Source: Gemmatimonas sp.
Lineage (GTDB): Bacteria; Gemmatimonadota; Gemmatimonadetes; Gemmatimonadales; Gemmatimonadaceae
Assembly: GCF_027531815.1 (NCBI RefSeq)
Contig: NZ_JAPZSK010000002.1
Span: 186,001 to 250,000 of the forward strand
DNA: 64,000 bases
Direction of reading: 5' to 3'
Within the stretch, counting starts at the first letter, position 1; every line of letters starts with the position of its first letter. Below are positions 33,424-57,170 of the stretch, in pieces. The translations under genes were made by a program, and so were the position numbers. The notes under the pieces were generated by a model. The model made no database searches. It was not told where the DNA came from and saw only the letters and a list, made by a program, of their open reading frames with translations.

Positions 33424-33436
33424 GTCTTTCGAGGCG

Positions 33437-37014: not shown

Positions 37015-37283
37015 CCTTTATTGGCGGATTGCCGGTAGCGATCGTCGCGCGCCTGTTGCCCACCTGGGCGGGCATGGTCGGCTGCGCCCCCGTCGACGCT
37101 CGAACGCTGGAGGGGGCCCTCGGGCGGATCGGGATGGCGGCGGTGATCGAGGAACTCGATGCGGCTTGGCTAGACGCGCTGTCGAGCGGTGCCAAGTCCG
37201 TCCCCTTCACCCCGTTCACGTGGGTACCAGCGCAGGGGACGTGGTATGCCTTCATGAACGAGCTCGACCGATTGCAGCCGTAG
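36780..37283 (+). CDS. Hypothetical protein, 167 aa
   Basis: The body has natural composition and secondary-structure rhythm: PADRWLELYELLHRLPPQER, SRGLFAKNRGQTLWDWACG, ATFIGGLPVAIVARLLPTW, TPFTWVPAQGTWYAFMNELD. No signal peptide; one hydrophobic helix. I do not recognise it. The first 20 residues overlap the doubtful opposite frame, so the true start may be later. The ATPase gene follows about 200 nt downstream. Confidence 0.55.
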   Translation: MRLGPRPGTADPAHVLHLPGYVHRPADRWLELYELLHRLPPQERPSRGLFAKNRGQTLWDWACGRRGLFPPPGRQPWATFIGGLPVAIVARLLPTWAGMVGCAPVDARTLEGALGRIGMAAVIEELDAAWLDALSSGAKSVPFTPFTWVPAQGTWYAFMNELDRLQP

Positions 37284-37414
37284 CCCGAGAGGTGCTCCTC
37301 GGGCGGTGAGGGATCCGCGGCGAACGCCCGTGAGTGGTAGGGAGGTGGGTGCCCGGCGAGCCGGCGGGCTGGCAAGGCGGTAGGTTAGGGAGTCAGTCGC
37401 CCTGTGGCGTCTGG

Positions 37415-39002: not shown

Positions 39003-39066
39003 CAAAGCGAAGTGATCACGCCACAACGTTTACGACCGCCATGCCCAATAGGGGAGTAATCCGACA

Positions 39067-42000
39067 TTGAGACTTGTTCCGAACACGGGCAATGATCGCG
39101 TGATCGACCTCGTTCGACCGTTGATCAGCGGTGGCCATCAGCTCGACGTGGTCTCTGGGGCCTTGTCGATCTTTGCGTGCGGTGAGCTACTTGGAAGCGA
39201 CGCCCTACCACCGACTTGCCGGTTGGTCCTCCCTCGCGATCTGGATGGGCACGCGCTGGTAGGGGCAAGCGAAGATCGTGCTGCGAGGAATCGCCTCGGG
39301 GGCCGCTGGCTCGCCGCCAAGCTGCGCTCCGTGATCGAGCGGCATGCCGAGGTACGCCTCGCCAAGAACGGTGTCCCGCAGGGGACGGTGGTCCTCAGGG
39401 ATGCATCGGGCTCGCCGGTGCAATCGCTGATGGGGGCAGTCGCGCTGTCCTCGGACGGCCTTGGGCTTGCGCCCGGAAACCCGCTCGGCCTGATCCAGGC
39501 GACAGAGAACGCGGCGGAGGCCGGTGCACTCGCCCAATGGTTCGATACCCAGTGGGCCGCGCTACCAGATACGCCAGAGTCAAAAGCGTCGCTCTTGGCG
39601 TTGCTCGAGGAGATTGCTCGGCATCGCGACCCGCACCTTGTCTATACGACGGTGCTGCACCACCTGCTTTCGGCGCGCGGCGACGAGCTCGACGAAGAGC
39701 AGGTCATCAAGTCCGCGACCGGTATTCGGAACACGCAGGTGTGGAAGAAGCTATTCAAGTTCCAGCGCGACGGTGTCGTGGGGGCCATCGACAAGCTCAA
39801 TCGCTTTGGGGGCTGCATCATCGCCGACAGTGTTGGGCTCGGAAAGACGTTTGAGGCACTCGCCATCATCAAGTACCACGAACTGCGCAACGATCGGGTC
39901 CTTGTGTTGTGCCCCAAGCGACTGCGGGACAACTGGACGCTGTACAAGGCGAACGACCGTCGTAATGTGCTCGCGGGCGACCGCTTCAACTACGATGTGC
40001 TCAACCACACGGACCTGTCGCGTGACGGGGGGCTCTCCGGCGACATCGATCTGTCGCACGTGAACTGGGGCAACTACGACCTGGTCGTCATCGACGAGTC
40101 CCACAACTTCCGGAACAAGAAGACCCCACAAGCGGGCGGAGAGACACGCTACGATCGTCTGATGCGCAAGATCATCCGCGAGGGGGTGAAGACGCGCGTA
40201 TTGATGCTGTCCGCGACCCCGGTCAATAACCGCATGGCGGACCTTCGGAATCAGATCGTGTTCGCGACCGAGGGCAACGATGCTGCGTTCCTAGAGCATG
40301 GTATTGGCAGTATTGATAGCACCACGCGGCTGGCGCAAAAGCAGTTCAACCGCTGGTTGGACTTGGATGAGTCTGAGCGGACGCCCACGCGGTTAATTGA
40401 GATGTTGGGCTTCGACTATTTCACGCTCCTCGATCTCCTGACGATCGCCCGTTCGCGCCGGCATATCGAGAAGTACTACGGGCTTTCCGAAACCGGCCGG
40501 TTCCCCGACCGCATGAAGCCCATCAACATCAAGGCCGATGTGGACCGGGACCGAACATTCCCGGCTATCCACGATATCAATCTGGAGATTCGCCGCCTCA
40601 AGCTCGCGGCGTACGCCCCGCTGCGGTACGTCCTCCCGCACAAGCAGGAAGCCTACGACCGGAAGTACAGTACGCAGGTGAAGGGTGGCACCGGCTTCTT
40701 CCGACAGGTAGACCGCGAGGAGAGTCTGATTCACCTGCTCCGCGTCAATCTGCTGAAGCGCATGGAAAGCTCAGTCTTCGCGTTCGCGTTGACCGTTGAG
40801 CGCCAGCTCCAGGACGTCCAGGCGACGCTTCGTCGCATCGAAGGAGAGTCGATCGAGCTGGAAGAGATCGATATCGACGACGTTGATGTCGATGACCCGG
40901 CCTTCGAGAGCCTGATGGTGGGCCGCAAGGTCAAAGTGCTACTGCAGGACATGGACCTCGTGCGTTGGAAGCAGGACCTGATCGAGGACCGCAATCGGCT
41001 CGCTACTCTTGTTGCCGCCGCGCGTGACGTGACGGCCGAGCGCGACGCCAAGCTTGCGGCGCTGCGCGAGGTGATCGCACACAAGCATCGTAGGCCGCTC
41101 AACGAAGGGAACCGAAAGGTCCTTGTCTTCACGGCCTTCGCCGATACCGCCCGCTATCTCTACGAGCAGCTGGCGCCGTGGGCGAAGGCGCAGCTGGGTG
41201 TGGACACCGCGTTGGTCACGGGGACCGGCAGCAATCAAGCCACCTTGCCGGGGCTGCGCCGGGACTTGGCGTCCATTCTGACCGCGTTCGCGCCCCGCGC
41301 GAAGGAAAGACCAGAGGACCTTGCAGCCGAGGGTGAAATTGAACTCCTCATTGCTACCGACTGCATCTCTGAAGGGCAAAACCTCCAGGACTGCGATTGG
41401 CTCATCAACTACGACATCCACTGGAACCCGGTTCGCATCATTCAGCGATTCGGGCGCATCGATCGCATTGGCTCTCCCAACGCTCGTATCCAGCTGGTGA
41501 ACTTCTGGCCCAACATGGAGCTGGAGGAATACATCAACCTGGAGCAGCGGGTCAGCGGGCGCATGGTACTCCTCGATATCTCGGCGACTGGCGAGGAGAA
41601 CCTGATCGAGCAGCAGTCCGGTAACCAGATGAACGATCTGGAGTATCGCAAGAAGCAGCTGCTGAAGCTGCAGGACGCCGTGATCGACCTCGAGGACCTT
41701 TCTACGGGGGTTTCCATTGCTGATCTGACCCTGACGGACTTCCGCATCGATCTGGCCGAGTTCCGGAAGGCGAATCCGGACGTACTGGCGTCGGTCCCCA
41801 TCGGGGTGTCTGCGGTGACGACGACCAGCGACGTCGAGGTCCCACCAGGGATAATTTATTGCTTGCGAGCCGAAGGCGAGGCGGCGGCACGGCTCCCAGA
41901 AGGGGGATATCCGTTGGCCCCGCACTACTTGGTGCACGTGGGGGAAGATGGCGCTGTGCTTCTGCCCTATACGCAGGCAAAACAGATCCTCGACCGACTC

Positions 42001-42264
42001 AAGCGCGTCTCACATGGCCGAGATCTACCTGATGCGGGGGCGTGCGCACGCCTCGATCGGGAGACGAAAGGCGGCGCTGACATGCGCCACGCCCAGCGGC
42101 TGCTTTCCGCGGCCGTCGCCTCCGTTGTGGGAAAGAGCGAAGAGCGTGCGGTTGCGAGCCTGTTCAGCCCAGGGGGGACGCACGCGCTGGCTGGGGAGTT
42201 CGCGGGCGCCGATGATTTCGAGGTGTTGGCTTATCTGGTGATCCTTCCCGAGGGCGCGACGTGA
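39067..42264 (+). CDS. SNF2-type helicase with N-terminal PLD-like region, first gene of a type III-like restriction operon
   Basis: 1065 residues from a TTG with a G-rich ribosome site upstream. The N-terminal 200 residues begin LVPNTGNDRVIDLVRPLISG, the phospholipase-D-like module seen in this helicase group. The helicase core has FQRDGVVGAIDKL (Q-motif region), SVGLGKTFEALAIIKY (motif I, about 255-270), LVVIDESHNFRNKK (motif II), LMLSATPVNNR (III), and in the second half ATDCISEGQNLQDCDWLINY and IIQRFGRIDRIGS (VI). Such helicases occur with DUF4391, a beta-class methylase and a Res protein as one conserved defence operon. The stop overlaps the DUF4391 start (GTGA). Confidence 0.92.
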   Translation: MRLVPNTGNDRVIDLVRPLISGGHQLDVVSGALSIFACGELLGSDALPPTCRLVLPRDLDGHALVGASEDRAARNRLGGRWLAAKLRSVIERHAEVRLAKNGVPQGTVVLRDASGSPVQSLMGAVALSSDGLGLAPGNPLGLIQATENAAEAGALAQWFDTQWAALPDTPESKASLLALLEEIARHRDPHLVYTTVLHHLLSARGDELDEEQVIKSATGIRNTQVWKKLFKFQRDGVVGAIDKLNRFGGCIIADSVGLGKTFEALAIIKYHELRNDRVLVLCPKRLRDNWTLYKANDRRNVLAGDRFNYDVLNHTDLSRDGGLSGDIDLSHVNWGNYDLVVIDESHNFRNKKTPQAGGETRYDRLMRKIIREGVKTRVLMLSATPVNNRMADLRNQIVFATEGNDAAFLEHGIGSIDSTTRLAQKQFNRWLDLDESERTPTRLIEMLGFDYFTLLDLLTIARSRRHIEKYYGLSETGRFPDRMKPINIKADVDRDRTFPAIHDINLEIRRLKLAAYAPLRYVLPHKQEAYDRKYSTQVKGGTGFFRQVDREESLIHLLRVNLLKRMESSVFAFALTVERQLQDVQATLRRIEGESIELEEIDIDDVDVDDPAFESLMVGRKVKVLLQDMDLVRWKQDLIEDRNRLATLVAAARDVTAERDAKLAALREVIAHKHRRPLNEGNRKVLVFTAFADTARYLYEQLAPWAKAQLGVDTALVTGTGSNQATLPGLRRDLASILTAFAPRAKERPEDLAAEGEIELLIATDCISEGQNLQDCDWLINYDIHWNPVRIIQRFGRIDRIGSPNARIQLVNFWPNMELEEYINLEQRVSGRMVLLDISATGEENLIEQQSGNQMNDLEYRKKQLLKLQDAVIDLEDLSTGVSIADLTLTDFRIDLAEFRKANPDVLASVPIGVSAVTTTSDVEVPPGIIYCLRAEGEAAARLPEGGYPLAPHYLVHVGEDGAVLLPYTQAKQILDRLKRVSHGRDLPDAGACARLDRETKGGADMRHAQRLLSAAVASVVGKSEERAVASLFSPGGTHALAGEFAGADDFEVLAYLVILPEGAT

Positions 42265-43016
42265 CAGGCGATGAGGTGGTCGCCGCGCTGGAACTGCCAG
42301 CCGCGGCACGAGTGGATCGTCGCATCCCGAAGACGCTGCTTGGGGAGCATGGCGCCCCCACGGCCGCAGATAAGCGTCGGATCAATGAGGGGATCGAGCA
42401 GATTCAGTGGGTGGCCGCGCTCAAGCCGACCACCATCGGCGTGGGGGCCTACCACGATGCGGCGCGTGAGTACCTTGAGATAGCGGTCATCCGGGTCACG
42501 TTCCGGGGCGAAGGAAAGGCAGACCGGTTGCTCGAGCTGCTCCATCGTGCCATCCCGTACCCAGTACTCGCGGTAGCAGACGCCGACGGGCGGACCCAGG
42601 TATCGGTGGCGCATAAGCGCTGGTCGCAGAGCGAAGCGGGTAAGACGGTGCTCGACGGCGACCCCATCACGGTAGACGCACCGCGGGAGAGCGCCGCGCA
42701 TCGGAGTGACTTCGCTGCTGCGCTGGCCGTAAGCCGGCAGCCGCGGACCTCCCTCCTCGCGCTCTATCACGGCTGGTTGGATGCGTTGCTGGCGCTGGAC
42801 GCCGCCCGACTGTCAGGGCGCTACTCCATATTGCCCACACAAGAGGGCCGGCAGGCGCGTTGGACTGCCCTTCACGAGATCCTCCGACTCGATGCTGAGA
42901 TCGCGAGGCTGCGGGCGGCGGCGGCCAAAGAGAAGCAGATGGCGCGGCAGGTGGCGCTGAATCTAGAACTCAAGCGCGCTGAGGCCGAACGGGCCGAGGC
43001 GCTCGGAAGACTTTGA
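42261..43016 (+). CDS. DUF4391 protein of the restriction operon
   Basis: 251 residues, starting at a GTG that overlaps the helicase stop. The family is recognised from RVDRRIPKTLLGEHGAPTA, the middle segment KADRLLELLHRAIPYPVLAV and YHGWLDALLALDAARLSGRY, and the C-terminal helix EIARLRAAAAKEKQMARQVA. DUF4391 proteins are found almost only between a SNF2 helicase and a type III-like methylase; their biochemical role is unknown. The end is a charged coiled coil that could bind a partner. The methylase start follows 11 nt after the stop. Confidence 0.88.
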   Translation: MTGDEVVAALELPAAARVDRRIPKTLLGEHGAPTAADKRRINEGIEQIQWVAALKPTTIGVGAYHDAAREYLEIAVIRVTFRGEGKADRLLELLHRAIPYPVLAVADADGRTQVSVAHKRWSQSEAGKTVLDGDPITVDAPRESAAHRSDFAAALAVSRQPRTSLLALYHGWLDALLALDAARLSGRYSILPTQEGRQARWTALHEILRLDAEIARLRAAAAKEKQMARQVALNLELKRAEAERAEALGRL

Positions 43017-43027
43017 CGAGGGTTACG

Positions 43028-45019
43028 ATGACGATGGAGAAGCTGACGGCGGCCGACCCCGCGACCCGGTCTCCTGATCTGGTGGCCGAAAACATTGAGC
43101 GCCTGAAGGCCATGTTTCCTGAGCTGGTGACGGAAGGCCCGAATGGCGCGGCCGTCAACGTGGATGTGCTCAAGACGCTTGTGGGCGACAAGACCGTGAC
43201 GGATGCGGAGGAGAAGTTTGGCATCAACTGGCATGGTAAGCGCCGCGCACGGCAGCTGGCGCTCACCCCGTCAACCGGCACGCTGCGGCCGTGCCCAGAG
43301 GACAGCGTGGACTGGGATACCACGCAGAACCTGATGATCGAGGGCGACAACCTCGAGGTGCTCAAGCTTCTGCAGAAGAGCTATGCAGGGAAAGTGAAGC
43401 TGATCTACATCGATCCGCCCTACAACACGGGCAAGGATTTCGTGTACCCCGACAATTTCCAGGAAAGCATCAAGAACTACCTGGAGCTAACGGGACAGCT
43501 GGAGGGAGGAGCGAGAATCAGCAGCAATACGGAGGCCAGCGGGCGTTTTCATACTGACTGGTTGAACATGATGTATCCGAGGCTGAAGCTCGCACAGAGC
43601 CTGTTGTCACCCTCAGGTATCATCTTTATCTCAATCGACTCTTCTGAGGCTGCAAACCTTCGCTCTGTGATGGATGACCTCTTCGGTGCGGAGAACTTCA
43701 TCGGACTCTTGCCGACGATAATGAACTTGAAGGGAAACAACGATGCATTTGCATTCGCAGATACCCACGAGTTCACGGTTGTATACTCGCGAGATAGAAG
43801 CAGTTGCTGTGTCCATGAATTGCCTGTTCCCGAAGACTCCCTTGACGACTGGCTCGAGGACGAGCGTGGTCTCTACAAGCGAGCCGACACTCTTAGGCGG
43901 ACGGGGCAGGATGCCTCGCGCGAACGCCGGCCGAACGGTTGGTTCCCGGTGTTCATCGCTGCCGAGGGGAGCGTATACGCAACCGAAGATGATAAGCCCC
44001 GCTCAAAGGCTGACATTGAGCTGTGGCCGCGTAATGAGGCAGGCGAAGAGCTCTCGTGGACGTGGAGCAAGAGGAAGATTAACGAAGAGCCGTATAATCT
44101 CATCGTGGTAGACGGTCGAGGCGGGAAGACCATCTACAAGAAGCAGCGCGCATCATTAGGTGATCTTCCGACGAGCAAACCAAAGTCAGTTCTATACAAG
44201 CCGGAGTATAGTAGCAGCAATGGTACAGCGGAGCTTTCGTCTCTTCTGGGAAGCAACGTCTTTGATAGCCCTCCTAAACCTCGCTCGCTGATCCGCGACC
44301 TTGTGTTGATCGGAGCGGATCCGGATGCAGTCGTCGTCGATTTTTTTGCAGGCACAGGCACCACTGCACACGCCGTTCTCGCCCAGAACGTCGTAGATGG
44401 CGGTACGCGACGATTCATATTAGTTCAGCTTCCTCAGCCACTTGATGTAGCGAACAGAGATCAAAAGGCGGCAGCTGAATTCTGCGATAGGCTGGGGAAG
44501 CCGCGCACTATTGCGGAGATCACAAAAGAGAGGATCCGGCGCGCTGCCGCGAAGATCAAGGCGGAAAACCCGATGTTCGCTGGCGATCTTGGATTTCGCG
44601 TGTTCAAGCTTGATTCCAGCAACATTCGTTCTTGGGCGCCGGATCGCGGCGACCTTGATGGGACACTGCTCGACGCGGTGGAGCACCTCAAGCCAGGACG
44701 GACGGAGTCTGACGTCCTTTACGAATTGCTATTGAAGCTGGGCCTTGATCTCTGCGTACCGATCGATTCGAAGGCCCTGGGCGGCCATACCATCCATTCG
44801 GTTGGGGGCGGCGTGCTGATGGCTTGCCTGTCTGCACAGATCGGTCGTGAACACGTCGACCACTTGGCGCAGGCCATGGTGGAGTGGCGAGCGGCGTTGA
44901 GGCCCGCTGGCGACACCACGTGTGTCTTCAGGGACAGTGCCTTCGCGGATGACGTGGCGAAGACCAACATGGCGGCGATACTGGAGCAACACGGAATCGC
45001 AACCGTACGGAGCCTCTGA
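43028..45019 (+). CDS. mod: Type III Mod, beta-class adenine-N6 DNA methyltransferase
   Basis: 663 residues from the ATG at 43028 (GAGGG five nt upstream; a TTG at 43013 overlaps the previous gene). The catalytic motif DPPYNTGKDF is at about residues 129-138, before the S-adenosylmethionine motif VVDFFAGTGTTAHAVL at about 436-451; this order defines the beta class used by type III Mod proteins. Between them lies the target recognition region (about 200-400). Its DNA (roughly 43.6-44.5 kb) is clearly more AT-rich than the flanks, a sign that specificity was swapped in by recombination. It should protect the host sequence and give specificity to Res. Confidence 0.95.
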   Translation: MTMEKLTAADPATRSPDLVAENIERLKAMFPELVTEGPNGAAVNVDVLKTLVGDKTVTDAEEKFGINWHGKRRARQLALTPSTGTLRPCPEDSVDWDTTQNLMIEGDNLEVLKLLQKSYAGKVKLIYIDPPYNTGKDFVYPDNFQESIKNYLELTGQLEGGARISSNTEASGRFHTDWLNMMYPRLKLAQSLLSPSGIIFISIDSSEAANLRSVMDDLFGAENFIGLLPTIMNLKGNNDAFAFADTHEFTVVYSRDRSSCCVHELPVPEDSLDDWLEDERGLYKRADTLRRTGQDASRERRPNGWFPVFIAAEGSVYATEDDKPRSKADIELWPRNEAGEELSWTWSKRKINEEPYNLIVVDGRGGKTIYKKQRASLGDLPTSKPKSVLYKPEYSSSNGTAELSSLLGSNVFDSPPKPRSLIRDLVLIGADPDAVVVDFFAGTGTTAHAVLAQNVVDGGTRRFILVQLPQPLDVANRDQKAAAEFCDRLGKPRTIAEITKERIRRAAAKIKAENPMFAGDLGFRVFKLDSSNIRSWAPDRGDLDGTLLDAVEHLKPGRTESDVLYELLLKLGLDLCVPIDSKALGGHTIHSVGGGVLMACLSAQIGREHVDHLAQAMVEWRAALRPAGDTTCVFRDSAFADDVAKTNMAAILEQHGIATVRSL

Positions 45020-45032
45020 CGGTGGCTTTTCG

Positions 45033-48005
45033 ATGAAACTGCATTTTGAATCGGACCTGGATTACCAGCTCCACGCGATCGAGTCTGTTTGCGACCTGTT
45101 CCGTGGGCAGGAGATCTGCCGCACGGAGTTCACCGTCACGCGTGATCCCCATGACGCCCAGATGCGGTTGGGGTTCGCCCACACCGATCTCGGCGTAGGT
45201 AATCGGCTCACGCTGCTCGACGACGAGCTGCTGAGAAACCTGAATGTGGTGCAGATTCGAAACGGTCTGGCCCCGTCGGGGACGCTCGCCTCGGGCGACT
45301 TCACGGTCGAGATGGAGACGGGGACGGGCAAGACCTACGTGTACCTGCGCACGATCTTTGAGCTCAACAGACGGTTTGGGTTCACCAAGTTCGTGATTGT
45401 GGTGCCGTCTATTGCGATCAAGGAGGGCGTATACAAGTCGCTCCAGATCATGGAGGATCACTTCAAGGCGCTCTACTCTGGAGTGCCATTTGAGTTTTTC
45501 CTCTACGATTCAGCAAAGCTCGGTCAGGTTCGCAATTTCGCGACAAGTGCGCACATCCAGATCATGGTGGTCACCGTTGGTGCCATCAACAAGCAGGACG
45601 TCAACAACCTCTATAAGGACAGCGAGAAGACCGGCGGCGAAAAGCCCATTGATCTGATCAAGGCGACGAGCCCGGTCGTGATCGTCGACGAGCCGCAGAG
45701 CGTAGACGGTGGCCTCAAGGGAGCCGGAAAGCAGGCGCTTGGTGCCATGAGCCCGCTGTGCACGCTTCGCTACTCGGCCACGCACGCCGACAAGCACCAC
45801 ATGGTCTACCGGCTCGATGCGGTGGACGCGTATGAGCGTCGGCTGGTGAAGCAGATCGAGGTGGCTGCTGCGACTGTCGAAGATGGGCACAATCGGCCGT
45901 ATGTCAGACTCGTATCGGTCGGCGGTCGCCGCGGGTCGATCAGCGCGGTAGTTGAACTGGACGTGCAGGGCAGGAGCGGGGTGCAGCGCCGCGAGGTCAC
46001 CGTCTTTGATGGCGACGATCTCGAGCAGACCTCCGGGCGCGCTGTCTATCGGGACTGCCGCATCGGAGAAATCCGTGCGGGGCGTGGGGAGCAGTTTGTG
46101 GAGCTGCGTGTCCCCGGCGGTGAAGTGTATCTGAAGCCCGGTGAAGCCTGGGGTGACGTCGATGGGCTGTCGGTGCATCGAGAGATGATCCGGCGCACCA
46201 TCAAGGAGCATTTGGACAAGGAAAAGCGCCTGCGCCCTCAGGGGATCAAGGTGTTGTCGCTGTTCTTCATCGATGAGGTAGCCCGGTACCGGCAGTACGA
46301 CGCTGACGGCAATGCGGTCAAGGGCGAGTATGCCCGGATCTTCGAAGAAGAGTACCGGCGCCTGGGCAACCACCCAGACTATCGCACGCTGTTCGCAGAA
46401 GTCGATCTGAGTCGTGCCGCGCAGGAGGTGCACGAAGGCTACTTCTCCGTGGACAAGCGATCGAAGCAGCTGGTGGACACGTCTGAGAGCAATCAGGGCG
46501 GGCGCGAGGCCGCGGAGCAGGCGTACAACCTCATCATGAAGGACAAGGAGCGGCTGCTGTCATTCGAGACACCGCTCAAGTTCATCTTCTCCCATTCTGC
46601 GCTGCGTGAAGGATGGGACAACCCCAACGTCTTCCAGATCTGTTCGCTGCGGGACATGCGAACCGAGCGCGAGCGGCGGCAGACGATCGGTCGTGGATTG
46701 CGCTTGTGCGTCAATCAGGACGGGCAGCGTTTGCGCGGGTTCGATGTCAATACATTGACCGTGATCGCGACGGAGAGCTACGAGCAGTTCGCGGCGAATC
46801 TGCAGAAGGAGATCGAGGAGGACACCGGTATCCGCTTTGGCGTTGTCGAACCGCACCAGTTTGCCTCGGTCATCGTGGTGGCGGGCGACGGCAGCACGTC
46901 CGCCTTGGGCATGGAACCGTCGAAGGCCATTTGGGAGCACTTCAAGGCTCAGGGCTACATAGACGCGAGGGGTAACGTGCAGGATGCCTTGCGAGTCGCG
47001 TTGAAGGCTGGCGCGGTGAGCATCCCGGCGGAGTACGCGACCCAGGCGGCCCAGATCGAGCACATCGTGCGCAAGCTGGCGGGGCGCCTCGAAGTCAAGA
47101 ACGCCGATGAACGCCGCCAGGTGCGGCCGCGGCAGGCCGTGCTCCAAAGTGCGGAGTTCAAGGCGCTCTGGGATCGCATTAAGCACAAGACGACGTACCG
47201 GGTGGAGTTTGACAACGAGAAGCTGGTGGAGGACTGCACCCGCGCGTTGCGCGACGCCCCCGCGATTCCCAAGACCCGCCTCCAGTGGCGTAAGGCCGAT
47301 ATCGCGATCGGGAAAGCCGGCATCGAGGCGACAGAGCGTGCTGGGGCCCAGACGGTTGTTCTGGACGAGTCCGACATCGAGTTGCCCGATCTCCTCACGC
47401 AGCTACAGGACCGCACGCAGCTCACACGTCGGACCATCTACCGCGTGCTGACGGGCAGTGGGCGGCTGGATGATTTCAAGCGAAATCCCCAGGCGTTCAT
47501 CGAGCTGGCTGCCGAAGCGATCAACCGGCGTAAGCGATTAGCGATCGTGGACGGCATCAAGTACGAGCGGTTGGGCGATGCCCACTACTACGCCCAGGAA
47601 CTGTTCGAGCAGGAGGAGCTGACTGGCTACCTGAAGAACATGATCGAGAGCACCACCAAGTCCGTGTATGAGCAGGTCGTGTACGACTCGGGGACTGAGG
47701 CGGCCTTCGCCAACGACCTCGAACGGAACGAAGCAATCAAGCTCTATGCGAAGCTGCCGGGCTGGTTCCGCGTCCCTACCCCCCTCGGTAGCTACAACCC
47801 CGATTGGGCGGTGCTCGTGGAGAAGGACGGTGCGGAGCGGCTGTACCTGGTGGTTGAGACGAAGAGCAGCCTGTTCGCCGAGGATCTGCGCGATAAAGAG
47901 AGCGCCAAGATCGAGTGCGGTAAGGCGCACTTCAATGCGCTGCGGGTTGGTGAAGCGCCCGCGGTGTACAAGGTCGCCCGGTCGGTCGAGGAGCTCGTGA
48001 CCTGA
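45033..48005 (+). CDS. res: Type III Res, helicase-endonuclease subunit
   Basis: 990 residues from the ATG at 45033, 13 nt after mod. Motif I is VEMETGTGKTYVYLRTI (about 92-108), motif II IVDEPQSVDGG (DEPQ, about 217-227), motif III LRYSATH, and motif VI ERRQTIGRGLRLCV. The C-terminal nuclease has GTEAAFANDLERNEAIKLYA, YNPDWAVLVEKD and YLVVETKSSL: the Asp...Glu-x-Lys core of a PD-(D/E)xK fold (about 915-945). Together with Mod it would translocate on and cut unmodified DNA. A hairpin with a T-run follows the stop. Confidence 0.95.
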   Translation: MKLHFESDLDYQLHAIESVCDLFRGQEICRTEFTVTRDPHDAQMRLGFAHTDLGVGNRLTLLDDELLRNLNVVQIRNGLAPSGTLASGDFTVEMETGTGKTYVYLRTIFELNRRFGFTKFVIVVPSIAIKEGVYKSLQIMEDHFKALYSGVPFEFFLYDSAKLGQVRNFATSAHIQIMVVTVGAINKQDVNNLYKDSEKTGGEKPIDLIKATSPVVIVDEPQSVDGGLKGAGKQALGAMSPLCTLRYSATHADKHHMVYRLDAVDAYERRLVKQIEVAAATVEDGHNRPYVRLVSVGGRRGSISAVVELDVQGRSGVQRREVTVFDGDDLEQTSGRAVYRDCRIGEIRAGRGEQFVELRVPGGEVYLKPGEAWGDVDGLSVHREMIRRTIKEHLDKEKRLRPQGIKVLSLFFIDEVARYRQYDADGNAVKGEYARIFEEEYRRLGNHPDYRTLFAEVDLSRAAQEVHEGYFSVDKRSKQLVDTSESNQGGREAAEQAYNLIMKDKERLLSFETPLKFIFSHSALREGWDNPNVFQICSLRDMRTERERRQTIGRGLRLCVNQDGQRLRGFDVNTLTVIATESYEQFAANLQKEIEEDTGIRFGVVEPHQFASVIVVAGDGSTSALGMEPSKAIWEHFKAQGYIDARGNVQDALRVALKAGAVSIPAEYATQAAQIEHIVRKLAGRLEVKNADERRQVRPRQAVLQSAEFKALWDRIKHKTTYRVEFDNEKLVEDCTRALRDAPAIPKTRLQWRKADIAIGKAGIEATERAGAQTVVLDESDIELPDLLTQLQDRTQLTRRTIYRVLTGSGRLDDFKRNPQAFIELAAEAINRRKRLAIVDGIKYERLGDAHYYAQELFEQEELTGYLKNMIESTTKSVYEQVVYDSGTEAAFANDLERNEAIKLYAKLPGWFRVPTPLGSYNPDWAVLVEKDGAERLYLVVETKSSLFAEDLRDKESAKIECGKAHFNALRVGEAPAVYKVARSVEELVT

Positions 48006-48049
48006 CCAGCAGTGTGGTCGAGGGCGGCGTAAAGTGCCGCCGCCAGCGT

Positions 48050-48082
48050 GGGGCTCCCTCAACCGGAGCCCCATGTCTTTTT
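48050..48082 (+). terminator. Terminator of the restriction operon
   Basis: GGGGCTCC-N7-GGAGCCCC, perfect 8-bp stem, followed after three bases by TCTTTTTC. It is the best intrinsic terminator in the window and lies 45 nt after the res stop. The same stem-loop recurs at 48430. Confidence 0.75.
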
Positions 48083-48240
48083 CAACTGTTTGCTTGGCTC
48101 GCCCACTCGAACGGGGGCCAGCTGCCCGCACGTGGTTCGCTGGCGCTCGACTCCCCCTGTTCGGCATGCGCCCGGCCCCCGCCGCGCCAGATGGCTAGCC
48201 ACTGTGACCTCGCACGCTGCTGTGCTGGCCTACGCCCTGA
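48050..48240 (+). pseudogene. Decayed duplicate of the start of the membrane-protein gene at 48455
   Basis: After the hairpin, the DNA matches 48430-48610: the stretch reading ARTWFAGARLPLFGMRPAPA here corresponds to ARAWFAGALLAVFGLRPTPR in the intact gene, and the next bases (CCAGATGGCTAGCCACTGTGA here) to its ARWLATVT codons, now with stops. The match stops near 48230. The unit hairpin plus 5' coding end was therefore duplicated or is the scar of an earlier copy of the operon. Confidence 0.7.
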
Positions 48241-48429
48241 ATCCTGAACCGGCGCGACTCACATTCTGGCGGTAGGGTTGAGGCTGGCCCAAGCCCCCCA
48301 CGGCAGTACGTGAATGCTGAGATCCAGTATGCCGGGGCCGCTCGGCTTCCATGGCCCTCGCCCCGCGGATCCCTCACCGGTGCGCCGGGGGAGGGTGTCG
48401 TGGCGTGGCCGGGCGGCACCGCTAGGCTA

Positions 48430-48450
48430 GGGCTCCCCAAACCGGAGCCC
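48430..48450 (+). promoter_or_regulatory. Stem-loop just before the membrane-protein gene
   Basis: GGGCTCC-N7-GGAGCCC ends 4 nt before the ATG at 48455, so it covers the place of the ribosome site and would hinder translation unless opened. It is a second copy of the terminator stem at 48050. It may be a translational control hairpin or only a leftover of the duplication. Confidence 0.5.
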
Positions 48451-48454
48451 CTCG

Positions 48455-49459
48455 ATGTTGGCCGTTGCTTCCCCCACACGCCGTACTTCGCCGTCGCTTT
48501 CCGCTCGTGCGTGGTTTGCCGGCGCTCTGCTCGCAGTGTTCGGCCTGCGCCCGACCCCCCGCCGCGCCCGGTGGCTGGCCACCGTCACCGCGCATGCCGC
48601 TGCGCGGCAGGAGGGGACGGCCGTCGCGGAACCCGCCCGCCGCCGTCTTGCTAGCGTCACCGATGGCGCGCTGCTGAGCCATCGCGCTGGGCGCGAGAGT
48701 TCACCGCGGATCCCTCGCCTCCGCGCGGCCCTCCCCACGCTCGCGCAGCGCGCCCAAGATGCCGCTGCGCAGGTGACCCGCCTCGAGGCCATGGTGCCGC
48801 CCGGGGCCGTCGAAGAGGCGCCGAGCTGGGTGCTCCGACTGCTGCTCGTTGCGGCGTTGATAGCGGAGGCGTTCCTGGTCTTTGGTAGCCTGGGAGCCAC
48901 AAGTCTCTCCGAGACGCCAATTGCGCTGTTTTGCTCCAGCCTGGCCGCGGCGCCGATCGCGGCAGCGTTGTTGTCGCGCGCCGGGTCTACGGTCCGGCGG
49001 GCTGTCGTCTGGCGTCGCCGATGGGAGGCTAGCGACGCCGCGCTGGTGCTCCTTGCGCTCGGTGTTGCCATCGTGCTCGGGGTTGGGCTCACTCTGAGCC
49101 GCGTCGCCGATGTCCAGGAGGGCCGAACGGCCGCCCTGCTCACATCGGCCGGTTTACAGGCGGTGATTCTCACCCTCCCCCTGATCGACGGCTACCTGCA
49201 CGCTTCGCCGGTGCCAGGTCTCCCGAAGGCGCGACGTCTGCGCGATCGCACCATCCGCCAGTACGACGCGGCCGTCGCCGAGCTGCGCCGGCTCGAGGCC
49301 GCGCACGCCCAGCGTGAGGTGGAGCTGGTCGCAAACGCCGAGGCGACCCACGCCGAATTCGAGCGCACCTTCGTGCGCCTGGGCGGCTCAGCGCTTGCCC
49401 CGCGAGCGACGACCGGGTGTTCTGCGGCGTACCCACCGCTGATCGGGGGGCACCGCTGA
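48455..49459 (+). CDS. Membrane protein with C-terminal coiled coil, operon gene 1 of 4 (unknown system)
   Basis: 334 residues. The first 120 are basic and Ala-rich with a helix (LRAALPTLAQRAQDAAAQVT). Four hydrophobic segments follow at about 127-245: VLRLLLVAALIAEAFLVFG, TPIALFCSSLAAAPIAAALL, ALVLLALGVAIVLGVGLTL and AALLTSAGLQAVILTLPLI. The end (about 255-312) is a charged coiled coil (LRDRTIRQYDAAVAELRRLE). No family recognised. The stop overlaps the next ATG (TGATG). The layout, membrane anchor with soluble coiled ends, suits a scaffold for the ATPase encoded three genes on. Confidence 0.8.
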   Translation: MLAVASPTRRTSPSLSARAWFAGALLAVFGLRPTPRRARWLATVTAHAAARQEGTAVAEPARRRLASVTDGALLSHRAGRESSPRIPRLRAALPTLAQRAQDAAAQVTRLEAMVPPGAVEEAPSWVLRLLLVAALIAEAFLVFGSLGATSLSETPIALFCSSLAAAPIAAALLSRAGSTVRRAVVWRRRWEASDAALVLLALGVAIVLGVGLTLSRVADVQEGRTAALLTSAGLQAVILTLPLIDGYLHASPVPGLPKARRLRDRTIRQYDAAVAELRRLEAAHAQREVELVANAEATHAEFERTFVRLGGSALAPRATTGCSAAYPPLIGGHR

Positions 49460-50319
49460 TGCCGCGCTGTTGGCGTGCCCTCGCCCTCGTACTGCTGCTG
49501 CCCCTTGGGCTCGCTGCCTGCAACTCCGCCGGCGTGGAAGGAGTGCACCAGCGCCTTGCCGCCGGCATGGAGGCCATCGGCCCTCGGGTCGTCCTCCTGT
49601 ACACGGACGTTTCCGCCTCGGTCCCCGATACCGCCTGGCACCAATCGCTCCGCCGGCTTTCCTGGGAGCTTCGCCCTGGGGACCGTTTGACGCTCTACGC
49701 ACTTGGCGGGCGGGCGCCGGATGCCCCGGTGCTCGATACGGTCGTGCCAGGTGGCGTCGCCGAACGCCTGTCGAGCGGGCTGGGGCTTTCCACGAGGATG
49801 AGTCGCAAGGAGCACGACCAGGTCGCCCGCGGGCTGTCGGATGCCCTGATCGCGGCCACCGGCAGGGCCCGGGCGTCCGATCCCGGCTCCCGTACCGCCG
49901 TGGTGGACGCGGTGTGCCACGCGGTGGCCACGAGCCAGACCATCCCCGATGGGCAGACGGTGGTGGTGCTGTTCACCGACGGGCAAGAGGAGAGCCCCCT
50001 CGCGAATGTGGCCCGTAAGCGCCCGACCGCCGCTCACGCCCGCCAGCTGGCGGTGGCGATCCGGCGGGACGGCCGCTGCCCCACAGGTGGCGCGTGGCCA
50101 CTACTCCGGCTCGTCGGGCTCCGACACCCGACCGATCCCCAGGCGCTCCGTCGCTGGTGGGAGACGCTGCTCAACGACCTAGGGGCGCCGCCCACGCGCA
50201 CCGATGTCACCACGCATTCGCTCACCGCGCTGCTCGACGCGCCCGTCCGCATGCCCCCCGCGGTGAGGGATCCGCGGGGAACGTCCTCGTCACGCTCGAT
50301 ACAGGAGGCCGCGCCATGA
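49459..50319 (+). CDS. von Willebrand factor A-like lipoprotein, operon gene 2 of 4
   Basis: 286 residues. Leader ALALVLLLPLGLAAC with lipobox Cys21. The vWA fold is shown by strand VVLLYTDVSAS, whose Asp50-x-Ser52-x-Ser54 is the metal-ion-dependent adhesion site start, and by TVVVLFTDGQEESP near residue 170, the second half of that site. Between them is a helix-rich segment (KEHDQVARGLSDALIAATGR). Such domains bind protein ligands through a metal ion. It would sit in the periplasm or on the surface, held by lipid, next to a membrane protein and a TraG-like ATPase. The stop overlaps gene 3 by four bases. Confidence 0.85.
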   Translation: MPRCWRALALVLLLPLGLAACNSAGVEGVHQRLAAGMEAIGPRVVLLYTDVSASVPDTAWHQSLRRLSWELRPGDRLTLYALGGRAPDAPVLDTVVPGGVAERLSSGLGLSTRMSRKEHDQVARGLSDALIAATGRARASDPGSRTAVVDAVCHAVATSQTIPDGQTVVVLFTDGQEESPLANVARKRPTAAHARQLAVAIRRDGRCPTGGAWPLLRLVGLRHPTDPQALRRWWETLLNDLGAPPTRTDVTTHSLTALLDAPVRMPPAVRDPRGTSSSRSIQEAAP

Positions 50320-50645
50320 ATACGACCATCATTCCGCGATTCAACGCGCGTTCGCTCGACCTTGTGGTGACCGGCCTCGTCGATCTTCCGACCGCAGTGC
50401 ACCTCGTCGAATACCTCGATGCCGCCTGCCACTATTACTGTTACTCGCGGGTGACACTCGACGCCTCGTACGCACGCTGGCGTTCGCGCGCTGCTCAACA
50501 TGTCGGGGCGGTGCTCCGTGCGGCACAGCAGGGTGGCGTGGAGGTCGATCTCAAGGCCCCGGAACCCATACGTCAGCGTCTGTTGGTCGGCGAGCCGCCG
50601 CGAGGCGGCGTGGTCCGCCCTCGGCGCGTGGGGTTCCACGGATGA
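50316..50645 (+). CDS. Small cytosolic protein, operon gene 3 of 4
   Basis: 109 residues; AGGAGG lies 9 nt before the ATG and both ends overlap their neighbours by four bases (ATGA). Blocks: FNARSLDLVVTGLVDLPTAV, HLVEYLDAACHYYCYSRVTL, QHVGAVLRAAQQGGVEVDL. The alternation of strand and helix recalls a STAS-like or Toprim-sized fold, but I cannot name a family. Its tight coupling suggests it works in a fixed ratio with the ATPase. Confidence 0.8.
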   Translation: MNTTIIPRFNARSLDLVVTGLVDLPTAVHLVEYLDAACHYYCYSRVTLDASYARWRSRAAQHVGAVLRAAQQGGVEVDLKAPEPIRQRLLVGEPPRGGVVRPRRVGFHG

Positions 50646-52129
50646 CCAAGCCCCTCGACCTGACAACGCCGGTCGATGTGCCCGAGCTCGCGAGTATTGG
50701 GCTCACGGTTGACCGTGCGGCTCTTACACGCGGAATCCTCGTGCTCGGTTCGACAGGCAGCGGCAAGACCGCTTCCGTGCTGGCCCCGCTGCTTTTCGGG
50801 TTGCTCCGGGAGCGAGAGGCCGCACCTCTTGAGCATCGCAGTGCCGTCGTCGTGATCGACCCCAAGCGAGAGCTCGCATCGCCGGTACTGGCGTCGTGCG
50901 CGGGCGTGCATGTGATCGCCGCTGAAGGGACACCCCCAATCGATGCGTTCGGCTCCATCGACCGTGACCGAGCCGACGCCGGGGTCTACACCGATCATCT
51001 GCTCGCGCTGGCGGGCGAGTCGTGGGAGGGTGTGCGCGATCCGTTTTGGCGGACCTCGGGTCGCGAAGTCCTTCGCGACTGCGTGGCGCTCGATCTTGAG
51101 TTTGCCGTGATCGGGGGCGGGGTAGCCGATGGTCACATCCGGCGAGCACTCTTCTGGCGTGATCTGGCCCAAACCTGCGTGAATGCCGGCCGCCTCACGG
51201 CGCCAGAGGCGCGGCTGCTCCAATCCTCGCAGCTGCCCATCAGCCGCTATCTCTGCCTACTGCGCCTGCTCGCCAGGGAACCCGGAGCGGGGCCGTTGCC
51301 AGTCAAGCCAAGTGGCGCCGATCTGGTACTCACGACGCTGACGGCGCACCTGCCGTCGTTCGCCCCCCAGGCGCTCTGGCGATTGCCGGAGCTGGCCAAT
51401 GAGACGGCGACTTCAGTTGTGGCGACTGCAGCGAGTCTTGTCGGGGCGCTGTCGAGCGCGCGGGTCCAGCGTGCGGTGCGGTTGGACGTGCTGCCAGCGG
51501 TGCGGCCGACTCAGCGTTTGTCGCTGTTCGAGACCATCCGGCGCGGCGAGGTGGTGATCTACCAGCCTGCCGATTCCAGCGACGAGAGCGCAGCGATCGG
51601 CCGCGCCCTCAAGTCGGCAGTGTACAACGCCGTGTTGTACGGTGCTGCGTGCCTCCCCGACGGTCGACCGCAGCGGCTGGCCGCATTGGTGATCGACGAG
51701 TGGCCCGTCGTAGTGACCGCGGGCGGCGTGGCGGATCACGAGTACCTCGCGCTCTGCCGCGGTTTCGGGGGGGCCACCATTCTCGGCGCCCAGTCGCTGG
51801 CGGCGATTCGCGAGCGGCTACCGGGCCGGTCCACCGACGCGGTACGGGCGGCGATTACGAACACCGCGACGCGTGTGCAGCTGGCCACCACCTGTCCGGA
51901 CACCGTCCAAGAGCTTCGCCATCTGGTAGGCCCCCCGCCCGTTCCGGGGCCGCACCTTTTGGACGTCCGCTCCCCCGCGCATTTCCTACCCGGTGAAGCC
52001 GTGTGGGTCGCGCCTGGCGCCTGGGGGATTGGGCGGGTAAAGCTTTGCAGTTCCTTGCCTCGATGGAACGCTCCCATGCGTCAGGAACTGACTCCGCTCC
52101 AGAGCGCCCAGCTCACCATTGAGCTCTGA
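50642..52129 (+). CDS. TraG/VirD4-like P-loop ATPase without membrane anchor, operon gene 4 of 4
   Basis: 495 residues. Walker A is LVLGSTGSGKTASVLAPLLF with Lys42; VVVIDPKRELASPVL follows the first strand as in TraG/TraD coupling proteins; Walker B is LAALVIDEWPVV (about 346-357); then GGATILGAQSLAAIRER and NTATRVQLATTCPDTVQELR, typical of the coupling-protein C-terminal motifs. There is no N-terminal membrane segment, unlike VirD4; gene 1 may supply it. No relaxase or pilus genes are nearby. It may move DNA or protein for the island, or be the motor of a defence system. The stop is followed by the AT-rich promoter of the next gene. Confidence 0.88.
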   Translation: MTKPLDLTTPVDVPELASIGLTVDRAALTRGILVLGSTGSGKTASVLAPLLFGLLREREAAPLEHRSAVVVIDPKRELASPVLASCAGVHVIAAEGTPPIDAFGSIDRDRADAGVYTDHLLALAGESWEGVRDPFWRTSGREVLRDCVALDLEFAVIGGGVADGHIRRALFWRDLAQTCVNAGRLTAPEARLLQSSQLPISRYLCLLRLLAREPGAGPLPVKPSGADLVLTTLTAHLPSFAPQALWRLPELANETATSVVATAASLVGALSSARVQRAVRLDVLPAVRPTQRLSLFETIRRGEVVIYQPADSSDESAAIGRALKSAVYNAVLYGAACLPDGRPQRLAALVIDEWPVVVTAGGVADHEYLALCRGFGGATILGAQSLAAIRERLPGRSTDAVRAAITNTATRVQLATTCPDTVQELRHLVGPPPVPGPHLLDVRSPAHFLPGEAVWVAPGAWGIGRVKLCSSLPRWNAPMRQELTPLQSAQLTIEL

Positions 52130-52188
52130 ATCGAGCCTGCGAAACGAAAAGATGGGACCGCATGATCCACCTCGGCGAAGTGGATTAT

Positions 52189-52204
52189 TATAATGCTACA
52201 AATA
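52189..52204 (+). promoter_or_regulatory. TATAAT box just before the regulator gene, leaderless start likely
   Basis: TATAAT at 52189-52194 is only 9 nt from the ATG at 52204, so transcription should begin at or next to the start codon. The surrounding bases (GATTATTATAATGCTACAAAT) are far richer in A and T than their neighbours. Confidence 0.6.
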
Positions 52205-52956
52205 TGCCGCGCCGTTCAACGACAAAACAGTCGCAGCTACGCCAGCTCGACGAACTGGTCGTCGAGATCAAACCGTCGGCGGCCGATTGGCCGGTGCCCG
52301 ACGGGGGCTGGATCGCAAGCATACGCGACGCGCTCGGGATGACCGGCGAACAGCTCGGCCGCCGTCTTGGGATCACTCGGTCATCGGTTAGAGCGCTCGA
52401 GCTTCGCGAGCGTGATGGGGGGGCCACGCTTGAGGCGCTCCGAGCCACTGCCGCTGTCTTGGGCTGTGATTTCGTGTACGCGCTTATTCCGAAAACGGGA
52501 AGCTTTGAGGCCACGCTACGTATGCAGGCCGAGCTTGCCGAGGCTGGCGGATCGGGGACCGAAACCAAGGCCCAAGATCGCGAAGAGCGCATAAGAGAGC
52601 TGATGCAGCGGCGCCCCCGCGTTCTTTGGGAGCCAACTGCCGTTGGAGATACCGATGTGGAGGCACCTCGTCGGAAGGGGAAGAAGCCTGGCCGCCCGAA
52701 GGGCAGCAAGGCAGTGGACCGCCCTGAGAGTGTGCTCCGCGAGACCGACGGTGGCCCCTCCGTGCGCCGGAGCACTCCCAAGGGGGTGGAGGAGGTCCCA
52801 GAGACGTCGGGTCGTTCTGGGGTGAATGGCGCGCCGTCGTCGCGAACTCCCCGCTCGCAACCCGTCGCGGAGGATGCGGCGGCGAAGGCCAGCCGGCGCA
52901 ATCCTCGACGGATTCGACCCGCGGCGGACGCGGAGCAGTTGGATGCCTTTGGGTAG
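52204..52956 (+). CDS. Mobile-mystery-protein-A-like HTH regulator with AT-hook tail
   Basis: 250 residues from the ATG at 52204. The N-terminal 105 residues match the mobile mystery protein A pattern: QLRQLDELVVEIKPS, GGWIASIRDALGMTGEQLGR, RLGITRSSVRALELRERDGG, ATLEALRATAAVLGCDFVYA. That is an XRE-type helix-turn-helix. The remainder is charged and disordered with KKPGRPKGSKA (about 155-165), an AT-hook. In other islands this protein pairs with a Fic-domain partner (mystery protein B), which is absent here. Placed just before excisionase and integrase, it probably controls the island's mobility genes. Confidence 0.82.
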   Translation: MPRRSTTKQSQLRQLDELVVEIKPSAADWPVPDGGWIASIRDALGMTGEQLGRRLGITRSSVRALELRERDGGATLEALRATAAVLGCDFVYALIPKTGSFEATLRMQAELAEAGGSGTETKAQDREERIRELMQRRPRVLWEPTAVGDTDVEAPRRKGKKPGRPKGSKAVDRPESVLRETDGGPSVRRSTPKGVEEVPETSGRSGVNGAPSSRTPRSQPVAEDAAAKASRRNPRRIRPAADAEQLDAFG

Positions 52957-53084: not shown

Positions 53085-53262
53085 GATTCAGTATCTCGTT
53101 TCGCTCGCTAGCGCAAATTGTTGATTGACAATGCTTTTCGGTGCTTCAAGCAAAAAATCTGTCGCGGCCAGTAAAGGCCAGGACGGGGCGGGAGGGGTGC
53201 GTTGGCGCGGCGCGCCAAAGCCGTAAGAGTCTGCACGTACCCTTCAACCCTTGGAGGTTTTC

Positions 53263-53574
53263 GTGGCAGTAAACTCGAAGCGCCGTACGTCCAGCACCCC
53301 CGCGATCACCAGCGACGCCGGTCGCATCATCGCCAAAGCGACCCGCGAGCGGGTGGCGGAACTGGTGCGCCCAGCGCGCCGCTCCCCGAAGTCCAAGGGA
53401 GGAGATTTCCGAGTTCGCAAGCTGCTCACGCCCGTCCAGGTCCAGGAGCAGCTCGAAGTATCCGAGTCGTGGCTCAAGCGCTCCGATATCCCCTTCATCA
53501 AGCTGGGCCGCCTTCGCCGGTACGACGCCGCCGTGATCGACGCGTACCTCACCGCCCGCGACACCGCAGCCTGA
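53263..53574 (+). CDS. Excisionase-like helix-turn-helix protein
   Basis: 103 residues from a GTG with GGAGG five nt upstream. The C-terminal half is a MerR-type winged helix used by excisionases: LLTPVQVQEQLEVSESWLKR then IPFIKLGRLRRYDAAVIDAY. The basic N-terminus (SKRRTSST) is typical of DNA-bending proteins. The integrase starts 11 nt after its stop, so the two are one unit. It should direct the integrase toward excision. Confidence 0.85.
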   Translation: MAVNSKRRTSSTPAITSDAGRIIAKATRERVAELVRPARRSPKSKGGDFRVRKLLTPVQVQEQLEVSESWLKRSDIPFIKLGRLRRYDAAVIDAYLTARDTAA

Positions 53575-53584
53575 GGACCTCGCA

Positions 53585-54817
53585 ATGTCGATCAAGCTCC
53601 AGCAGCGCGGCGGTACGTTCTCGATCTACGTCCCCAACACGGTCGGCAAGGGGCGCCCCGTGCTCCGCGCCACCGGGTATGCCAACCGGACGACGGCCCT
53701 GAAGGTGGCCACCATGGTGGCCAACCTCCGCGACCGCGGCGAGTTCGAGCTCCTCAACGCGGTCGCTGAAGGGAAGACAACGCTGTTCGACCTGTACCAG
53801 GCGCAGGTGCAGAACAAACAGCAGGTGCTCAAGAAGCTGCTCAAGCGGGTCGCGATCTCCCCCTTCCTCGAGCCTTGGTTGAAGAGCTGTGCGGCCAACG
53901 GACTGTCCGACGCCAGCGTCTCGCTATACCGGAGCCGCATGGAGAAGCTGTTCGCCCCCGCGACGTTGGCGCCGATCGTGTACGTGGATCAGCTGACCGA
54001 GGGCACGATCATCAACCTGATCGCTGCCCTCGGAGTCTCCAGCGGTACGGCCCGACAGTACCTGCATGAGCTCCAGAGCCTCTGCCGCTTCCTGGTGGCG
54101 CAGGGGGTACTGAGTCACAACCCAGCCGCGAATCGGGACCTGATCCGCGTCCCAAAGAAGAACAAGGCGCGCCGCCGTTGGGTCCGGGACAATGTGGACC
54201 GCGCGATCGTGGAAGCGGCGGACCCGGAGTATCAGGGGGTGTTCGCGTTCCTGCACGGAACCAGCGCCGATCGCGGAGACGTGCCCCGCCTGCGCCGCCG
54301 GGATGTGAACCTCGATCAGCAGTACGTCGACATCGACGGCAACAACAAGGCTGCTACGCGCCGCCGCATGCGTGTTCCAGTGGAACCATGGGCGCTGCCG
54401 TACCTAGTGCGGGCGTGTGAGGGATTGGAGCCGGAGGACCTCGTGTTCGATGGGCTGTCGCTCGACGCGATCAGCCGCGCCCACAAACGGGCAACCAAGA
54501 AGGCCAAGGTGAAGAACTACTGGCTGCGCGACAGCCGGCACAGCTACGCCATTCGGGCGATTTTGCGGGGGGCTGCCATCGCCGACGTGTCGGCATGGCT
54601 CGGGCACTCTTCGCTCGCGACCACCTACGAGACATACGTGCACTTCGACGGGGAAGTGAAGCAGATCCTCGTGGCGGGCAGCGGCATTCGGGAGGGCGAA
54701 GGCGGGACGCCCTCCGCACCGTCGGCCCCGGTGTCAGCACGTCGCCGCCGCAGCCACGCCAATTCGCCGGTCGCGCCGCAGGCGACCGGCCGCCGCCGCT
54801 CACCCAAGGAGGCATGA
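53585..54817 (+). CDS. int: Tyrosine recombinase (integrase) of the island
   Basis: 410 residues. A SAM-like core-binding domain lies at about 90-190 (FLEPWLKSCAANGLSDASVS; YRSRMEKLFAPATL). The catalytic domain has the first Arg in GTSADRGDVPRLRRRDV (about 225), then WLRDSRHSYAIRAILR with His-x-x-Arg (about 318-326), AWLGHSSLATTYETYVHF with His and the nucleophilic Tyr (about 352). The last 45 residues are a basic low-complexity tail. Its place 2.3 kb from the intact tRNA-Leu fits an integrase acting at that gene. Confidence 0.93.
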   Translation: MSIKLQQRGGTFSIYVPNTVGKGRPVLRATGYANRTTALKVATMVANLRDRGEFELLNAVAEGKTTLFDLYQAQVQNKQQVLKKLLKRVAISPFLEPWLKSCAANGLSDASVSLYRSRMEKLFAPATLAPIVYVDQLTEGTIINLIAALGVSSGTARQYLHELQSLCRFLVAQGVLSHNPAANRDLIRVPKKNKARRRWVRDNVDRAIVEAADPEYQGVFAFLHGTSADRGDVPRLRRRDVNLDQQYVDIDGNNKAATRRRMRVPVEPWALPYLVRACEGLEPEDLVFDGLSLDAISRAHKRATKKAKVKNYWLRDSRHSYAIRAILRGAAIADVSAWLGHSSLATTYETYVHFDGEVKQILVAGSGIREGEGGTPSAPSAPVSARRRRSHANSPVAPQATGRRRSPKEA

Positions 54818-57086: not shown

Positions 57087-57170
57087 TGCGGACGGCCGGA
57101 GTCGAACCGACACGGGGGTTAGCCCACCAGCTCCTAAGGCTGGTGCGTCTACCAATTTCGCCACGTCCGC
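57087..57170 (-). tRNA. tRNA-Leu (anticodon UAG)
   Basis: 84 nt. Acceptor GCGGACG pairs with CGTCCGC, discriminator A, and CCA is not encoded. The D-arm follows as TGGCGAAATTGGTAGACGCA. The anticodon arm is CCAGC-CTTAGGA-GCTGG with anticodon TAG. A long class II variable arm and a T-arm with loop TTCGACT complete it. This is the intact target gene for the island and the likely source of the three relics at 16.93, 31.65 and 32.64 kb. Confidence 0.93.
57127..57142. repeat. Right attachment core in the tRNA anticodon arm
   Basis: CCAGCTCCTAAGGCTG is identical to 32676-32691. It spans the anticodon loop and stem, a common crossover place for tyrosine integrases. Confidence 0.7.

Follow-up and report, generated by a model that had tools for sequence, protein, structure and literature searches.

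A four-gene operon encoding a VirD4-like ATPase is the constant part of a rare tRNA-targeting island family with changing cargo in Gemmatimonas

The closest described counterparts of the locus reported here, a four-gene operon (P1–P4) of Gemmatimonas sp., are the VirD4/TraG/TrwB coupling proteins, the HerA-type ATPases and the tRNA-targeting integrative elements and defence islands. HerA-type ATPases paired with effectors are a known theme in anti-phage defence, and the FtsK-like TraB and the clt sites of Streptomyces provide a comparison for relaxase-free transfer with repeats. The operon is located on contig NZ_JAPZSK010000002.1 of assembly GCF_027531815.1, in a stretch of 64,000 nucleotides (positions 186,001 to 250,000) that was analysed as a whole and is referred to as the window. 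It comprises four genes on the same strand (48455–52129 of the window) and is part of a 24.5-kb integrative element inserted in a tRNA-Leu gene. Comparison with related loci reveals that P1–P4 form the constant part, and the cargo genes an exchangeable slot, of a rare island family. The island resembles known tRNA-targeting elements and defence islands in having a tyrosine integrase, a probable excisionase, an attachment (att) site in a tRNA gene and defence cargo, but differs from them in its backbone operon and an element-specific repeat, neither of which was found described; the literature likewise yielded no description of this Gemmatimonadota island family. An earlier note on this DNA had recognised the operon, its motor and its envelope partners, but had missed the integrative element with its integrase and att sites, the repeat and the changing cargo.

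The four open reading frames lie at the coordinates of the earlier note, and their proposed overlapping arrangement was confirmed, with an overlap of one base at the P1/P2 junction (TGATG) and of four bases (ATGA) at both P2/P3 and P3/P4. Four-base overlaps are also present in a related locus (L012). The search for relatives covered 288 genomes of the order for P2 and 395 genomes of the phylum for P4; most relatives are draft genomes, some of them cut at contig ends, and absences hold at the sensitivity of the searches used. Four genomes, all of the same genus (G150, G156, G157 and G159), contain P2 relatives together with the remaining operon genes, and in the phylum sample one genome from a different genus (G213) has P4 by itself, at the edge of a contig. 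Two short and weak P2-like matches (G166 and G156:C3) were not taken as members. The order P1-P2-P3-P4 is kept in loci L011, L012, L013 and L014, and in L010 up to the contig edge; in L014, P4 is cut by a contig end and its remainder is found in L031. Sequence identity of the module among relatives ranges from ∼32% to 64%. P4 is under purifying selection, with ratios of nonsynonymous to synonymous substitution rates (dN/dS) of 0.14 for L010 versus L012 and of 0.19 and 0.25 in wider pairs. Because the same order occurs in other genomes and P4 shows these low ratios, P1–P4 are not chance reading frames. The earlier note had called for a search for this gene order elsewhere and would have been contradicted by an order unique to this genome, with broken copies in others; the order recurs at several loci in four other genomes, next to tRNA or integrase genes, although decayed copies exist as well. 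In L029, P1–P3 and the first part of P4 are missing, and P1 of L012 is frameshifted. The L029 locus (9100–10200) represents the tRNA-Ser site of L012, with neighbours that are ∼99% identical, and the deletion took G5a, P1–P3 and the start of P4.

The borders of the island could be assigned by comparison with a relative (G158) that lacks the 24.5-kb island and has an intact tRNA-Leu gene. A 16-nt att core in the anticodon arm of the window tRNA-Leu (57127–57142) recurs at 32676–32691, where the GC content falls. The window tRNA-Leu is only 83% identical to that of G158, whereas the left copy is identical to it over 55 nt, which implies that the element replaced the 3′ half of the tRNA gene and displaced the original one. 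With an integrase, att repeats and an empty site in a relative, the island is a site-specific integrative element. In relatives the module adjoins a tRNA-Ser gene (L012, 1.4 kb), a tRNA cluster (L013, 2 kb) or an integrase gene (L011, 3.2 kb), and L031 is syntenic with L013 at the tRNA cluster. At every locus where it is visible, the tRNA or integrase gene is located on the 3′ side of P4, at a distance of 1.3–5 kb.

In contrast to the module, the cargo differs from island to island. It consists of a type III restriction-modification/SNF2 set in the window, Hma in G156 (C19), DISARM in G159 and, as assigned by reading the sequence, a CusCBA-like efflux set in G157, and thus is usually, not always, a known defence system. 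Two small protein families recur at set positions, G5 close to the module and G7 beyond the cargo. The constant part of these islands appears to be an envelope-linked motor, while complete defence systems of different kinds, or metal efflux, can fill the slot.

The motif GGTGAGGGATCCGCGG was derived from an inverted match within the window that is exact over 19 nt. In its exact form the motif has eight copies in the 288 genomes, all within three module-carrying islands; ∼3 copies are expected from composition alone, and the backwards control gave one. A wider 16-nt form, GGYGAGGGATCCGSGG, has 23 copies in ten genomes (∼1 expected). All of these belong to the five module-bearing genomes, in which they lie near the module or, beside G7, at the syntenic edge of the cargo; G213 and four genomes of the genus that lack the module have no copy. 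In the window, G156 and G159, repeats are located upstream of both P1 and the first cargo gene, whereas in L011 they are found after the integrase gene and inside a gene for a 625-residue protein. Some copies form dyads with 17-nt arms, and their orientation is mixed. The tight link between repeat and module is firm; the repeat itself could be an operator, a site for a motor or a recombinase, or an element-borne palindromic repeat. This link provides a tangible starting point for learning how cargo is exchanged or the islands move. Matches to the repeat in eight viral contigs were taken as chance, the surrounding 3–13 kb encoding none of the island's proteins. The coordinates of the features in the window are collected in Table 1.

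Table 1. Features of the island and its borders in the window.
Feature	Position	Strand	Remarks
Displaced original tRNA-Leu 3′ half, distal end	32637..32691	+	100% over 55 nt to intact G158 tRNA gene; includes att core 32676–32691
G5-family protein	36780..37283	+	Family adjoins module in relatives
Repeat CGGTGAGGGATCCGCGG	37304..37320	+	170 nt upstream of first cargo gene
Window cargo	37491..48005	+	DUF234 ATPase, SNF2/HKD helicase, DUF4391, type III mod and res
Degenerate upstream copy of P1 leader and P1 5′ end	48040..48225	+	Tandem duplication, spacing ∼380 nt
Repeat CGGTGAGGGATCCGCGG, inverted	48363..48379	-	Between cargo end and P1
Hairpin GGGCTCC-GGAGCCC	48430..48451	+	Immediately 5′ of P1; 3′ arm contains ribosome-site-like GGAG; TAGGCT just upstream
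P1	48455..49459	+	Predicted membrane protein with four transmembrane helices, Arg-rich N-terminal region, C-terminal coiled-coil-like tail; relatives in L010–L014
Repeat variant inside P1	48704..48720	-	Matches GGYGAGGGATCCGSGG
P2	49459..50319	+	ATG 49459, stop 50319; predicted lipoprotein, predicted vWA fold, invariant DxSAS and DGxEES
Repeat at P2 end	50261..50277	+	∼55 nt before P3 start; same spot in L012 and L010
P3	50316..50645	+	ATG 50316, stop 50645; 109-residue STAS-like protein
P4	50642..52129	+	ATG 50642, stop 52129; VirD4/TraG-superfamily ATPase, Walker A GSTGSGKT, Walker B VIDE
XRE-type helix-turn-helix regulator	52162..52956	+	Downstream of P4; HTH_3 1.5e-6
Probable excisionase, HTH_17-like small protein	53251..53574	+	Weak Pfam match (E 7.6e-4, below cut-off)
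Tyrosine recombinase (integrase)	53585..54817	+	Phage_integrase 3.8e-7
tRNA-Leu, proximal end	57087..57170	-	att core CCAGCTCCTAAGGCTG at 57127–57142; 3′ half now element-derived

P4 matches the Pfam families TrwB_AAD_bind (E 2.7e-8) and T4SS-DNA_transf (E 7.1e-5) above cut-off, and shares with the VirD4/TraG/TrwB coupling proteins these two domains and the Walker A and B motifs. Unlike the coupling proteins it contains no hydrophobic segment, hence no N-terminal membrane anchor of their type, in agreement with the anchorless VirD4-like motor proposed earlier; relaxase, VirB4 and pilus genes were not recognised beside it and no plasmid relative was found. The match to FtsK_SpoIIIE remains below the threshold (E 0.1; 12.4 bits versus a cut-off of 24), and no FtsK gamma-type DNA-reading domain was recognised; by the domain test, P4 does not belong to the FtsK/TraB (AICE-type) dsDNA translocases. 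Among the PADLOC models, P4 shows similarity at the superfamily level only (mad8, 9.8e-5; HerA, 9e-3): it shares weak P-loop matches with the HerA and MADS mad8 defence ATPases, but the match is limited to a short P-loop stretch and no P4 partner gene was matched. By these models, P1–P4 do not belong to a known anti-phage system. The hydropathy of P1, together with a reading of its sequence, bears out the predicted four-helix membrane protein, with hydrophobic helices at residues 126–144, 156–174, 196–214 and 226–244 and a charged, coiled-coil-like tail. P1 matches no Pfam, PHROG or NCBIfam family above cut-off, giving weak chance-level matches only, and in PADLOC a single weak match (MTase_III, E 0.025). 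Its N-terminus was considered as repeat junk, which was rejected as it aligns with the relatives. The N-terminal hydrophobic stretch of P2 ends in LAAC, a lipobox-type signal. A predicted structure of moderate confidence (predicted local distance difference test score, pLDDT, 73) retrieves almost throughout vWA and integrin I domains with Foldseek, and the motif D-x-S-A-S plus DG-x-EES is invariant in five relatives. P2 is thus predicted to have a vWA fold with a metal ion-dependent adhesion site (MIDAS)-type motif and to bind metal. The vWA lipoprotein of the earlier note is upheld by these features, but not by the Pfam vWA match, which is non-significant (E 0.3, below cut-off); P2 has no match in PADLOC and no PHROG or NCBIfam model above cut-off.

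The small P3 protein yields a confident model (pLDDT 84), for which STAS proteins are among the best groups of both Foldseek (E 7e-5, Z ∼10) and VIA-align, indicating a STAS fold. This membership concerns the predicted fold only: like SpoIIAA and RsbS, P3 has the STAS fold, but it shows no convincing sequence match to solved chains and no sigma-factor partner genes were seen. Models of Pfam, PHROG and NCBIfam gave no match above cut-off, and PADLOC gave none. Outside the phylum, the closest P4 relatives that were found are four ATPases of Burkholderiales (L019, L040, L041 and L042; hhalign 100%, E 2.7e-48), each followed by a ClpP-like protein that retains SPGG and the Ser and His residues. 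P3 aligns without gaps over 70 columns with the N-terminal half of these ClpP-like proteins (probability 77%, E 2e-5). A YYxY region is common to both, but P3 lacks SPGG and ends ahead of the catalytic Ser and His. P3 as an active ClpP protease was consequently rejected, the catalytic half being missing. The most fitting description of P3 is a non-catalytic STAS-like protein that may have arisen from the ClpP-like partner or have a common ancestor with it; it is thus more than the small protein of the earlier description. In the Burkholderiales the ClpP-like gene comes after the ATPase gene, whereas P3 precedes P4, and no P1 or P2 relatives were noticed at the pair loci. The pair is rare, with P4 relatives in three of 201 genomes of a Burkholderiales family sample (query included) and none further in 369 genomes of the class. 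Two of the four loci are near integrases, and one pair is also near an E1-E2-type candidate defence gene. A literature search found nothing on VirD4-like proteins with ClpP-like proteins in defence, and a search for MADS gave only unrelated papers among those listed. The ATPase and ClpP/STAS partnership ties the island module to an equally unstudied pair in the Burkholderiales.

Searches by tblastn with P4, P2 and the Burkholderiales relatives gave no plasmid match (72,556 plasmids for P4 and P2), by which a conjugative plasmid module is rejected. Among the larger island genes, none for a relaxase, VirB4, a channel or a pilus was recognised, in line with the earlier note, which had seen no relaxase, pilus or secretion-channel genes; the Pfam scan covered these larger genes, while mod, res and the small open reading frames were compared at most with PADLOC. 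With neither such a gene nor a plasmid match, conjugation proper is counted against, and the judgement that the operon is no known conjugation module stands. A phage origin is also rejected, P4 having no match in 50,697 phage records and no relative in three viral-contig protein scans.

Since the module is constant while the cargo varies, the repeats are tied to the module and P4 is under purifying selection, the reading that we tentatively prefer is that P1–P4 constitute the backbone machinery of the island family, most plausibly serving its persistence or spread. The features of the four proteins suggest a machine that is probably a DNA motor anchored in the envelope and that would serve to move or retain the island. 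P4 would act on island DNA as a ring motor of the VirD4/HerA type and P1, through its membrane helices and cytoplasmic coiled coil, would hold it at the inner membrane, with P3 as a non-catalytic STAS-like adaptor. P2 would face outward as a metal-dependent module that binds a further envelope protein or a partner, and the repeat is putatively bound by a module protein or its regulator. The job of such a motor would more likely be island persistence or spread, by DNA pumping or exclusion, than service to one particular cargo. Several observations weigh against this. No transfer partner, relaxase or origin was recognised, the L012 and L013 loci yielded no integrase, and the repeat might instead serve as an operator or be a selfish palindromic sequence. 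Furthermore, the module is dispensable, since several copies have decayed, and the mostly defensive cargo leaves room for a defence role. Finally, the Burkholderiales ATPases pair with an apparently intact ClpP-like protease, with no P1 or P2 noticed, which points to an intracellular role in the ancestor.

A stand-alone anti-phage system anchored in the envelope, where P1 and P2 would sense phage while P4 and the STAS/ClpP-related P3 stop incoming DNA or trigger a response, is less likely than a backbone role but is its nearest competitor. It would fit the type III restriction-modification, Hma or DISARM cargo next to the module, the ClpP-like partners and integrase or candidate defence neighbours of the Burkholderiales ATPases, and the HerA-type precedent. 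However, P1–P3 have no convincing PADLOC match and P4 has one at superfamily level only, P3 lacks the protease catalytic residues, and the module adjoins an integrase or tRNA gene and stays constant when the cargo changes, even to metal efflux. A minimal transfer device, in which P4 would pump the island through an envelope path of P1 and P2, with no relaxase and with the repeats as loading sites, seems unlikely. A VirD4-superfamily motor with membrane and lipoprotein partners, the mobility of the island and an element-specific repeat with a non-palindromic core speak for such a device, but the repeat orientation is mixed, FtsK-type features are wanting in P4, P4 and P2 have no match in the plasmids searched, and there is no outer-membrane channel gene. 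It seems just as doubtful that a relaxase-free and pilus-free DNA translocation machine, built from a VirD4-type motor, a STAS/ClpP-related adaptor and membrane and vWA lipoprotein parts, moves these islands and recognises the 16-nt repeat as a dedicated site that brackets the interchangeable cargo slot. Least probable of all is that the repeats are shared operators, through which a module regulator co-controls P1–P4 and the cargo operon, P1–P4 being accessory to the cargo. The XRE regulator adjacent to P4 in the window and the repeats upstream of both P1 and the first cargo gene agree with this idea, but other copies are at gene ends (after the integrase gene and inside the 625-residue protein gene in L011, and at the P2 end in the window and L012). 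The backbone role thus ranks before defence, minimal DNA transfer and a cargo accessory, in that order.

Some minor features of these loci were also observed. The hairpin in the P1 leader is kept in sequence in relatives, with weak covariation, and is not claimed as a proven RNA switch in view of this poor covariation. Leader hairpin and P1 5′ end are part of the tandem duplication of ∼380 nt, which spans 48040–48605 and of which the upstream copy is degenerate. The 625-residue protein of L011 (5143–7020) is of no known family and is encoded between the G5 and the excisionase/integrase genes, with repeats upstream and inside. At the distal end of the island (32974–34186), a SecB-like protein beside a HicB-like protein resembles a chaperone-linked toxin-antitoxin arrangement. 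Just outside (31640–32560), a tRNA 3′-end fragment (31645–31690) flanks an antitoxin/PIN toxin pair (31673–32557), as if an older, smaller element had used the same tRNA-Leu site. In the other genus, the P4 relative (L030, 1–3550) stands beside genes that, from their sequence alone, read like a diversity-generating retroelement, with an FGE-like target and a reverse transcriptase.

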